From positions 1 to 64,000 of the forward strand of contig CAIFEZ010000020.1 in NCBI GenBank assembly GCA_903789595.1: 64,000 nucleotides of DNA, read 5' to 3'. Shown piece after piece: positions 1,278 through 63,777 of this stretch. The position numbers and the translations under genes are program-made. This DNA is from an uncultured eubacterium 1-6. GTDB lineage: Bacteria; Bacillota; Clostridia; Lachnospirales; Lachnospiraceae. Each line of letters begins with the position of its first letter. Position 1 is the stretch's first letter. The notes below the pieces were generated by a model that saw only the letters and a program-made list of their open reading frames with translations, was not told the DNA's origin and ran no database searches.

Positions 1278-1350
1278 ATCTCTGCAACGAGATAAAACAC
1301 GCTGCGCGAGTTTTATCTCGCTATCGCGACGCTCGCCGCACACGAATACT
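1278..1350 (-). repeat. R3 family repeat, GAGATAAAAC hairpin
   Basis: The core 1288-1320 has perfect 11-bp arms (CGAGATAAAAC / GTTTTATCTCG) around a GC-rich loop. The minus strand, including the flanking GCGGCGAGCG stretch, aligns with 42600-42665, so this is a dispersed repeat. It lies between the convergent murG and HIT genes and may also act as a terminator stem. Confidence 0.6.
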
Positions 1351-1383
1351 TCGCATTCGGCTGCGGCTCACTGTTCGCGTAAA

Positions 1384-1436
1384 TAAAAAAAACGACGCCC
1401 GCCACAGCCGATCTTTCTTCCGGCTGTGACAGGCGT
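1384..1436 (-). terminator. Rho-independent terminator of the HIT gene
   Basis: On the minus strand a long GC-rich stem (CGCCTGTCACAGCCG pairing with CGGCTGTGGCGGGCG) is followed by a run of eight T. It lies about 85 nt past the stop of the HIT gene. Confidence 0.85.
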
Positions 1437-25220: not shown

Positions 25221-25487
25221 ACTGTATAAGCTCCGGATTGCTCCGTGCTTCGCACTCTCGCAATCCCACATAGACCGACTTCGTCGGTCTGCCGCGGCGT
25301 TCGCCCCACCGCATCACACGATGTGTGTGCGGATGTGGCTCACTGCTCGCGCACATAAGCACTCTCGTGCCGCTCCGCGTCACTTCGTGCTTATGCTTGT
25401 TGCCTTCGAAATCGCTGACCGTCTCGCTCGCACGCTTTGCGTGCGGCGTTCCGCTCCGCGTTTTCGAAGAGCTTTTTCCTTGCTGTG
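25221..25487. repeat. R2 family copy with internal insertion
   Basis: It starts with ACTGTATAAGCTC and runs to TTCGAAGAGC, with the same hairpins as the next copy. About 85 bp of extra hairpin-rich sequence (GACCGACTTCGTCGGTC and others) sits in the middle. The distal terminus is replaced by TTTTTCCTTGCTGTG. Confidence 0.75.
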
Positions 25488-34456: not shown

Positions 34457-34984
34457 TCAGTTTTCCGGTTCAATCAGACCATAAGTGTTCCCTTTTCTCT
34501 TGTATACTACATTTACCTGGTCGGTGTCCGCGTTCATGAATACGAAGAAACTGTGTCCGAGAAGCTCCATCTGTACGCAGGCATCTTCCGGATACATCGG
34601 CTTGATATCAAACTTCTTCGTGCGGACGATGCGAATCTCCTCATTCTCCATGTAATCATTGTCGATGTATGTCTTCTGGAAATTGGAAGCAGCCTGTTTC
34701 TTGTCGATGATTTTGGTCTTATACTTGCGAAGCTGACGCTCGATCACCTCTTCTACAAGATCAATGGATACATACATATCGTTGCTGACCTGCTCGGAAC
34801 GGATGATTTTGCCTTTGACAGGAATTGTGACCTCAATTTTCTGTCTTTCTTTTTCCACACTCAGTGTAACGATTACGTTTGTATCCGGTGTGAAATATCT
34901 CTCCAGCTTGCTCAGCTTCTCAGTTACTGCAGCTCTGAGACCATCGGTAATCTCTATGTTTTTTCCACTGATTGTGATATTCAT
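34457..34984 (-). CDS. hpf: Ribosome hibernation promoting factor, long form
   Basis: The N-terminal 100 residues match the S30AE/YfiA domain (MNITISGKNIEITDGLRAAV) and the C-terminal 60 match the dimerisation domain of long HPF (KFDIKPMYPEDACVQMELLGH), so it should form 100S ribosomes in stationary phase. AAGGAG is spaced 8 nt from the ATG at 34984, and I therefore trim nine residues from the track ORF. It lies directly upstream of secA, as in many Firmicutes. Confidence 0.95.
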   Translation of the reverse strand: MNITISGKNIEITDGLRAAVTEKLSKLERYFTPDTNVIVTLSVEKERQKIEVTIPVKGKIIRSEQVSNDMYVSIDLVEEVIERQLRKYKTKIIDKKQAASNFQKTYIDNDYMENEEIRIVRTKKFDIKPMYPEDACVQMELLGHSFFVFMNADTDQVNVVYKRKGNTYGLIEPEN

Positions 34985-35032
34985 AAAAACATCTCCTTTC
35001 GAGGGGTACATACACCCTATTTTGATTAGAAT

Positions 35033-35061
35033 ATTATAACAACAGATCTGTCATTCGTAAA
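35033..35061 (-). promoter_or_regulatory. Promoter of hpf
   Basis: TTTACG and TATAAT are separated by 17 nt on the minus strand, with the start site predicted about 40 nt before the ATG. Confidence 0.65.
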
Positions 35062-35101: not shown

Positions 35102-35368
35102 CGAATTGTCAGTTCCTGTTCACGCGCAACTGACAAGGCAAGGATTTCACAGCACCTTTGCCAGAGCATTACTGGCTGTTAAAAGTTTTATCCTTAAATC
35201 CTTCATGGAATAAACAGCGAGGACTGTTTGACGAAGGCGCTCGCGCCTGAGGAGTTCCGCAGCTTCAATAAATAAGGATAAAACTTTGTTACAGCCAGTT
35301 TGCGAATGGCAACAGGGCTGTGAAATTCCTGCCTTTCAGACATCCCGTGAAAAGTAACGAATTGTCAG
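35102..35368. repeat. R1 element with 11-bp flanking direct repeats
   Basis: The 245-bp element 35113-35357 has imperfect inverted repeats of about 75 bp. They begin TTCCTGTTCACG and end CGTGAAAAGTAA, and include ATTTCACAG arms and ACTGGCTGT/ACAGCCAGT with GTTTTATCC/GGATAAAAC. The exact 11-mer CGAATTGTCAG flanks it on both sides (35102-35112 and 35358-35368). The right copy contains the rsmI stop codon. Confidence 0.85.
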
Positions 35369-36213
35369 GTATTTTTATTGAGATACGCGTAGATCTCCCG
35401 CTTGCCGCAGCCCCGGTCTCTGGCCACCTGCTTCATGGCCTCCTTCCGGTCTGTCCCGCGGTCCAGATAGTACGCCATATGCTGTTCCACGGTCATTTTC
35501 TTCCAGAACGCCTGCTCTTCCTCCTTCCGCTCCCGGAAGCTTTTGCCCTCGATCACCAGAACAAATTCGCCTCTCGGCGCCTCTGTCTCATAGTGCTCCA
35601 GCGCCGCGTCAAGCGTCGTCCGCTGCACGTTCTCATGCTTTTTGGTAAGCTCTCTGCACAGACTGATCCGCCGGTCCCCGCCGAGCACGTCCCGAAGCTC
35701 ACCGAGCGTCCTCACCAGCCGGTGCGGCGCCTCGTAAAGGATGATCGTTCTCGTCTCCTTCTTCAGATCCTCCAGCACCGCCGCCCTCTCCTTTTTCTCC
35801 ATGGGAAGAAATGCCTCGAAGGCGAAGCGCCTCGTGGAAAGTCCCGACATCGTCAGTGCCGTGATACAGGCGGCGGGACCAGGCAGTGAGGTCACCTCGA
35901 TCCCGGCCTCCGCGGCCATCCGTACCAGAACCTCTCCCGGATCGGAGATGCCGGGCGTTCCCGCGTCCGTGATCAGAGCAATATTCGTCCCGGAGAGAAG
36001 CTTCTCCACGAGCTGCCTGCCCTTGTCATAGCGGTTGTTCTCGTGATAGGCAGTCATCGGCGTATGGATATCAAAATGGTTCAGCAGCTTTATACTGTTT
36101 CTCGTGTCCTCCGCGGCAATCAGGTCTGCCTCCTTCAGGGCACGGACCACCCGGAAGGTAATATCCTCAAGGTTTCCGATCGGTGTTGCGCAAAGGGTAA
36201 GCCTGCCCGGCAT
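35365..36213 (-). CDS. rsmI: 16S rRNA (cytidine-1402-2'-O)-methyltransferase
   Basis: RsmI methylates C1402 in the decoding centre, using SAM. Signatures are LTLCATPIGNLEDITFR, DLIAAEDTRNS, LITDAGTPGISDPG and SLPGPAACITAL. Start: ATG at 36213 with AGGAGG 5 nt upstream; the track's 36-residue extension is rejected. The stop codon lies inside the right direct repeat of the R1 element, so R1 appears to have inserted at the very end of this gene. It follows the trmN6-like gene after a 253-bp spacer. Confidence 0.94.
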   Translation of the reverse strand: MPGRLTLCATPIGNLEDITFRVVRALKEADLIAAEDTRNSIKLLNHFDIHTPMTAYHENNRYDKGRQLVEKLLSGTNIALITDAGTPGISDPGEVLVRMAAEAGIEVTSLPGPAACITALTMSGLSTRRFAFEAFLPMEKKERAAVLEDLKKETRTIILYEAPHRLVRTLGELRDVLGGDRRISLCRELTKKHENVQRTTLDAALEHYETEAPRGEFVLVIEGKSFRERKEEEQAFWKKMTVEQHMAYYLDRGTDRKEAMKQVARDRGCGKREIYAYLNKNT

Positions 36214-36350
36214 AACGCCCTCCTTTCCGGTACTTTCTCCGTACCTTACCGCAGTATGTATAATGATCCAGCACAGAGAAAACTGCAGTTTATCGAGATC
36301 GGAGTGCTGAATACTTATCATTTTTTCATTCGCGCAAAGCTTTCAGGTGA

Positions 36351-41951: not shown

Positions 41952-42313
41952 TCTGATATTGCTCTGTTCACTGCAACTCTTTACGGCAAGGATTTTACAG
42001 TCCTGTTGCCCTTCGCAAACTGGCTGTAGCAAAGTTTTATCTTGTTTTTTTAAGCTGCGGAACTCCTCAGGCGCAAGCGCCTTCGTCAGACTGCAAATCT
42101 ACTAGGCTCATTTCATTCTCCAAGGGATTTGTATGCGTCGCACGTAAGCGGCCGCAAGCGCCCGCTAAGTGCTCATCGCAAAGTCCTCGCTATCCACTTC
42201 ATGAAGAATTCACGGATAAAACTTTTTACAGCCAGTAATGCTCAGGCAAAGGTACTGCAAAATCTTTGCCGTTTCAGTAGTGCCTAAACATATAACGTCC
42301 TTCTGATATTGCT
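41952..42313. repeat. R1 element with internal insertion and 12-bp flanking direct repeats
   Basis: This inverted copy spans about 41964-42301. It keeps the arms (GGCAAGGATTTTACAG, ACTGGCTGTAGCAAAG, GATAAAACTTTTTACAGCC) and AGGCGCAAGCGCCT core. About 90 bp of extra sequence (from about 42095) interrupt the middle. The 12-mer TCTGATATTGCT flanks it exactly (41952-41963, 42302-42313). Confidence 0.8.
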
Positions 42314-49915: not shown

Positions 49916-49931
49916 TATGTGGCAATCCATG

Positions 49932-50176
49932 TAACTGTTCACACACAACTAACAAGGCAAGGATTTCACAGCACCTTTGCCTGAGCATTACTGGCTGTTA
50001 AAAGTTTTATCCGTAAATCCTTCATGGAATGAACAGCGAGGACTGTTTGACGAAGGCGCTCGCGCCTGAGGAGTTCCGCAGCTTCAATAAATAAGGATAA
50101 AACTTTGTTACAGCCAGTTTGCGAATGGCAACAGGGCTGTGAAATTCCTGCCTTTCAGATATCCTGTGAAGAGCAA
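49932..50176. repeat. R1 element, 245 bp
   Basis: This copy is nearly identical over its whole length to 35113-35357 and has the same orientation and length. It fills the spacer between the divergently placed bioY promoter and the end of the response regulator gene. I see no clear direct repeats at its ends. Confidence 0.85.
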
Positions 50177-50183
50177 TGACAAT

Positions 50184-63311: not shown

Positions 63312-63548
63312 GTTTACTGTACACCCCTATCTCTTTACGGCAAGGATTTTACAGTCCTGTTGCCATTCGCAAACTGGCAGTAACAAAGTTCTATCCTTAT
63401 TTATTGAAGCTGCGGAACTCCTCAGGCGCAAGCGCCTTCGTCAAACAGTCCTCGCCATCCACTTCTTCAATAATTAACGGATAAAACTTTTAACAGCCAG
63501 TAATGCTCAGGCAAGGGTACTGTAAAATCTTTGCCGTTTCAGTAGTGC
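63312..63548. repeat. R1 element, inverted copy
   Basis: It carries GGCAAGGATTTTACAG and the ACTGGCAG...GATAAAACTTTTAACAGCC arms, with the AGGCGCAAGCGCCT core. Orientation is opposite to the 35-kb copy. It adjoins R2 pieces on both sides. Confidence 0.8.
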
Positions 63549-63552
63549 GTCG

Positions 63553-63777
63553 CATGCGAAGCGCGCGATGAGCCCGACTGCGTTTTCTCCTTCTTCAATG
63601 TATAAGCTATAGATTGCTCCGTGCTTCGCACTCTCGCAATCCAACAAGAATGAGCACTTCCGGTACGCTTTTGTGTACCTTCGTGCTCATTCTTGTTGCC
63701 TTCGAAATCGCATCCTGTCTCATTCGCACGCTTCGCGTGCGATGAGCCCGACTGCGTTTTCGAAGAGCTTATACATT
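63553..63777. repeat. R2 partial copy plus complete 181-bp copy
   Basis: A right-end fragment (GATGAGCCCGACTGCGTTTT) at about 63568 precedes the complete copy 63597-63777, whose termini are AATGTATAAGCT / AGCTTATACATT. The internal hairpins match those at 25488-25667. Confidence 0.85.

Follow-up and report, generated by a model that had tools for sequence, protein, structure and literature searches.

A high-copy palindromic repeat beside rsmI in a Lachnospiraceae genome: a probable MITE with ISBst12/IS66-type ends and a hairpin core

The palindromic repeat R1 lies between rsmI and hpf in the 64,000-nucleotide stretch of DNA analyzed here (the window). It belongs to a family with multiple copies and target site duplications (TSDs), and related genomes contain corresponding sites that lack the element; therefore, R1 is a mobile MITE. 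This agrees with the first-pass annotation, which had read R1 as a non-autonomous, MITE-like element, and full insertion sequences (ISs) with matching ends were also found. R1 is very probably a MITE with ISBst12/IS66 ends that was mobilized in trans by a transposase of this type, whose staggered cuts mostly span 8 bp, and that carries a hairpin core as cargo. As a type of element, R1 is ordinary; the novelty lies in the assignment of its helper and in a constrained hairpin core that is also found in the absence of mobile ends. A specific transposase group (ISBst12/IS66) is hereby linked to a palindromic repeat that occurs in high copy number in a Lachnospiraceae genus. A 2007 review (PMC2229807) stated that just one bacterial repeat had until then been connected with its transposase in this manner. 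The repeat family also explains assembly breaks at such repeats in these genomes, while the conservation of the hairpin core goes unexplained by transposition.

Boundaries and fold of R1

R1 is 247 bp long (35112–35358, minus strand, defined as the strand with the conserved apex GCTGCGGAACTCCTCAGGCGC-GA-GCGCCTTCGTCA). Its terminal inverted repeats (TIRs), GTTCCTGTTCAC at 35112–35123 (plus strand) and GTTACTTTTCAC at 35347–35358 (minus strand; GTGAAAAGTAAC on the plus strand), differ from the family consensus GTTACTGTTCAC by two mismatches in all. The element is flanked by a perfect 9-bp TSD, GAATTGTCA, with a left copy at 35103–35111 and a right copy at 35359–35367 (both plus strand). The palindrome and the direct repeat described in the first-pass annotation are both real, but their lengths, given as 245 and 11 bp, had to be revised to 247 and 9 bp. 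The 11-bp repeat CGAATTGTCAG consists, in each copy, of the TSD and two extra bases, one from the terminus of the element and one from the flank, the latter matching by chance. The right duplicate does include the rsmI stop codon, as had been stated; it reads TCA on the plus strand and forms the last three bases of that copy (35365–35367).

The R1 strand forms a single long hairpin whose stability greatly exceeds chance expectation (z -8.7 both as RNA, at -114 kcal/mol, and as DNA). The structured core, which matches positions 1–159 of the covariance model, spans 35157–35315 (minus strand), with the invariant apex around 35229–35260. The apical loop of the core contains 2, 3 or 4 nt depending on the copy, and because its length differs in this way the core has no coding capacity, as had been noted for R1 from its sequence.

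A repeat family in the host genome

The search for further copies that the first-pass annotation had recommended returned at least 59 copies of the R1 core in the host genome (G000), that of a gut-type bacterium. With up to three mismatches allowed, the apex pattern gave 59 matches (29 forward, 30 reverse) and its reversed control none; copy counts are search-based and represent a lower bound, with 40 of 171 candidate places scored in the BLAST comparison of R1 against its own genome. The window itself contains a second full-length family member (49931–50177, minus strand), a third copy from a subfamily with diverged ends (63314–63560, plus strand), and a fourth copy of the long form (about 337 bp) with an extra 90-nt inner module (41960–42297, plus strand, limits approximate). 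The consensus ends derived from 30 aligned copies, GTTACTGTTCAC...GTGAACAGTAAC, are common to three size classes: core-less copies of 68–106 bp, copies of 247 bp, and copies of 337 bp that contain the 90-nt inner module.

Flanking duplications, whose absence from other copies would have counted against a mobile element, were recognized in 20 of 39 distinct TIR-bounded copies (8 bp in 15, and 7, 9 or 10 bp in the rest), about half of these copies being without a recognizable duplication, whereas the same test, applied to 20,000 random combinations of a left with a right flank, detected none. As a property of the family, duplication is beyond chance. The core-less short copies have the same TIR and an 8-bp TSD (e.g. 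AAACCGCA); thus, movement appears to require no more than the ends. The family is short, non-coding and multi-copy, with a TIR at both ends and TSDs, as in bacterial MITEs. Within the genus, the R1 core is patchy, being present in 4 of 16 genomes and absent from 12.

Several other repeats were observed near these copies or in the window. The copies L013, L022, L023 and L025 have no recognizable right TIR and are immediately followed by a further repeat whose sequence is close to GTATAAGCTACGGATTGCTCCGTGCTGCGCACTCTCGCAATCC (window about 63560–63650); they are thus composite repeats. A second dispersed repeat, about 80 bp long and likewise abundant, is located beside some MITE copies (window 25275–25351; flank of L028) and occurs at many places in G004, G010, G012 and G013. 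Another dispersed repeat is represented by a 105-bp stretch (window 1280–1384 and L147:7334–7438) with 95% identity to the spacer between secA and the next gene (prfB-like) of Eubacterium sp. UBA4343. Additionally, the ends of host contigs C6, C19, C27, C30 and C55 (L095, L098, L229, L093 and L097) fall within MITE termini and run on into CAATGTCAT(GC/TA)AGTTAA..., which we take to resemble an IS4-type end. These junctions are consistent with an IS, itself unassembled, that targets GTTCACNNN within the MITE terminus and makes a 9-bp duplication.

Sites without the element in related genomes

Of 12 joined-flank queries, one per copy, the first 10 were used to look for empty sites in 16 genomes of the genus. 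Orthologous loci do not always contain the element, a point on which the first-pass annotation had made its reading depend, and the cleanest case comes from a copy other than R1. In G004 and G010, the alignment of the L042 flanks runs uninterrupted across their junction, where the target is present once; this constitutes a clean empty site. The rsmI-hpf spacer has no R1-like element in G004, G005 and G001, where the spacer itself has diverged and the base-exact empty site is lost, and the sole basis for absence of the element in G008 is an alignment that is continuous at the R1 site, but at only 66%. Filled sites with empty orthologous counterparts, as in MITEs, are thus represented both by L042 (G004, G010) and by the R1 spacer (G004, G005, G001, G008).

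The rsmI-hpf spacer of G010 contains an element of its own, at another position and in the opposite orientation, that is cut by the contig end. The hpf region on G010 contig C69 is 98% identical to the window over 191 bases (hpf and upstream), and other matched stretches between G010 and the window species show roughly 76–90%; a recent exchange of this region is possible.

Full insertion sequences with the same ends

A search for IS66 transposases in relatives identified a divergent element in G021 with ends GTTACTGTTCAG and a 535-aa transposase. This protein, the only one tested, matches PF03050 with an E value of 8e-20, above the cut-off, and NF033517 with 172 bits, just below its cut-off of 180. 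When it was used as the query over 200 genomes of the family and the termini were inspected, full elements were found in four genera, those of G143, G090 and G108 being filed as IS66 by homology to the G021 protein (39–43% identity). The G143 element (2358 bp) has ends GTTACTGTTCAC/GTTACTGTTCAG and a perfect 8-bp TSD, GCCGGAAT. The G021 element (2207 bp, ends GTTACTGTTCAG) and the G090 element (2308 bp, GTTACTTTTCACGGGG at both ends) have no clear TSD, and that of G108 (2293 bp, GTTACTGTTCACACCC at both ends) begins at the first base of its locus, leaving the TSD unreadable. A transposase gene with matching termini, which had been named as something to look for, is hence present in other Lachnospiraceae, in full ISs with the same TIR and an 8-bp duplication; this autonomous partner was found in other genera of the family, whereas the genus of the host, the host included, yielded none. 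The GTAAC-type TIR and the direct repeat of mostly 8 bp (range 7–10) place the ends in the ISBst12 group. In ISDge4, an IS of this group with proven mobility, the TIRs read GTGACTACTCAGCA/GTAACTGCTCAGCA and the direct repeat is 8 bp long (PMC12898284).

A profile search detected no ISBst12-type transposase in G000 and, elsewhere in the genus, nothing beyond a remnant of 33 residues in G005. Contigs C62–C66 of G000 (1.7–2.4 kb) read as N, and a hidden autonomous copy in the host is therefore possible. The interior of the MITE showed no apparent resemblance to the full ISs, the likeness being confined to the ends. R1 had no match in phage and plasmid collections, and viral contigs containing the 14-mer TIR had no TIR pair.

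Other candidates were rejected. The classic IS66 of the host has GTAAGCG ends, and no matching ends were seen for its IS256. An inward-facing TIR pair on C2, 2556 bp in extent, encloses an ordinary membrane-protein-like gene between two separate short elements. PF03050 matches overlapping with the MITE-bearing congeners fail the ISBst12-type profile.

In the proposed mechanism, the 12-bp ends of R1 (GTTACTGTTCAC), which appear to be those of ISBst12-group IS66 insertion sequences, would have been cut by an ISBst12-group transposase acting in trans, and the element would have been inserted via a staggered cut, mostly of 8 bp. The conserved hairpin core would have been carried between these ends as cargo, and the helper IS may have been lost from the host genome or may be hidden in it.

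A conserved structured core

Analysis of 49 copies from four species showed that 98.1% of the cells in the stem alignment are paired, with 14 pairs changed on both sides, versus a mean of 6.7 in shuffles and 1–7 in slid controls. The divergence of the apex is 0.022 within G000 and 0.055 to G005 (2.2% and 5.5%), versus 0.21–0.25 and 0.45–0.58 (21–25% and 45–58%) for the spacers next to it. The inner module of the long form is also nearly identical across subfamilies. Near-identical blocks beside saturated spacers are not sufficiently explained by recent expansion; they require that the core be constrained or that conversion be confined to it. G005 has dispersed cores, about 197 bp long, between unrelated flanks with neither TIR nor TSD. 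These cores argue against IS66-type mobilization in that genome, since the ends are missing, and such mobilization cannot account for them. The covarying stems, the nearly invariant apex and the TIR-less cores of G005 thus suggest that the core, of roughly 200 bp, is a constrained structured element that was captured by IS66-type ends. Tentatively, it might be an undescribed element selected for its fold and apex, standing alone in G005 and serving as cargo of IS66-type ends in G000 and G010, with a hairpin that acts beyond transposition.

The double changes in the stem, the conservation of the apex and inner module, and the presence of the core in G005 without TIR or TSD also favor an alternative in which the core, under selection for its fold and apex, functions in its own right as a structured RNA (or ssDNA hairpin) belonging to either the host or the element, with the IS66-type ends acquired later as a vehicle in some species. 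However, the core matches no family in Rfam 15 and displays no orientation or gene preference. Two samples, of 200 and 397 genomes drawn mostly from other genera of the family, yielded no core in a search that scored 14 candidates per genome by covariance and used an exact pattern, such that distant relatives could be missed. Given its absence from the sampled genera and from 12 of the 16 genomes of its own genus, the core is not essential. Its pattern is absent from viral contigs and from the other genera sampled, which speaks against a widespread occurrence. This alternative is thus conceivable, but rather unlikely.

In the congener G009, where the R1 core was not found, two elements of about 200 bp (L223, L224) have the same GTTACTGTTCACGGG start and a different interior.

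Insertion at rsmI and neighboring genes

As a MITE copy, R1 is inserted between two genes of the minus strand: rsmI upstream (35365–36321), an intact ORF of 318 residues, and an hpf/raiA-type ribosome hibernation factor gene downstream (34457–35011). The 9-bp target, TGACAATTC on the rsmI strand, would have begun at the stop codon, which the TSD would then have regenerated. The hpf promoter, a sigma-70-like TTTACG-17-TATAAT (35033–35061, minus strand) that is conserved in congeners, lies outside R1 and would be unaffected. With the rsmI stop restored and the hpf promoter untouched, the insertion would have been tolerated.

A terminator or stability function, which the first-pass annotation had also raised, found no support. 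R1 could in principle terminate rsmI transcription rho-independently or stabilize the 3' end of the rsmI mRNA, and be kept by selection like BIME/REP sequences, as its very stable hairpin directly follows the rsmI stop and a few G005 copies are also close behind stop codons. However, R1 has no T-tract or terminator signature, and it is missing from congeners in which the genes are arranged identically. The orientations of the neighboring genes are even, with no strand preference, for the 35 copies with usable context (++, 10; --, 10; +-, 8; -+, 7), these counts being approximate, from automatic ORF calls in which single entries, that of R1 included, can be wrong. Since the orientations are even, a terminator signature is missing and the hpf promoter lies outside R1, a specific regulatory role is unsupported, and a terminator function is very unlikely. 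About equally unlikely is spreading by an IS200/RAYT-type single-strand mechanism that recognizes the hairpin, as in REPs: the hairpin with its conserved apex and the G005 copies without duplications would fit, but in G000 the TIR and the 8-bp duplications bear the signature of DDE transposition, targets are duplicated even by copies that lack the core, and REP/BIME elements, with a Y1 transposase, make no duplication.

Elements with the same TIR occur upstream of hpf in L124, L162, G000 and G010, numbers too small to claim a hotspot. Those of L124 (3725–3919) and L162 (3700–3898), from two other Lachnospiraceae, are unrelated multi-hairpin elements of 195–199 bp just upstream of hpf, with R1-type TIRs, 8-bp duplications (7/8 and 8/8) and fold z values of -15.4 and -8.2, respectively.

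Comparison with known elements

R1 has no transposase and only its ends in common with the ISBst12 group (e.g. ISDge4, PMC12898284), and its helper was not found in the host genome; the terminal repeat, however, is close to GT(A/T)ACTG(T/C)TCA, the TSDs of the R1 family are, as in that group, mostly of 8 bp, and full elements with R1-type ends are present in Lachnospiraceae. The classic IS66 of the host (contig C23) belongs to the same transposase superfamily and 8-bp duplication class, but its relatives and its own right end have GTAAGCGTCAAATA termini instead of GTTACTG. REP/BIME palindromes are likewise dispersed intergenic hairpins, whereas R1 is much longer and has TIRs and target duplications. 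Correia/NEMIS, ERIC and RUP (reviewed in PMC2229807) resemble R1 in being short and intergenic, with TIRs, a duplication, a single hairpin formed by the whole element, and long and short forms set apart by an internal module. In contrast to these repeats, R1 ends in GTTAC rather than 5'-TA, its helper family is IS66/ISBst12, and its core exists elsewhere without the ends.
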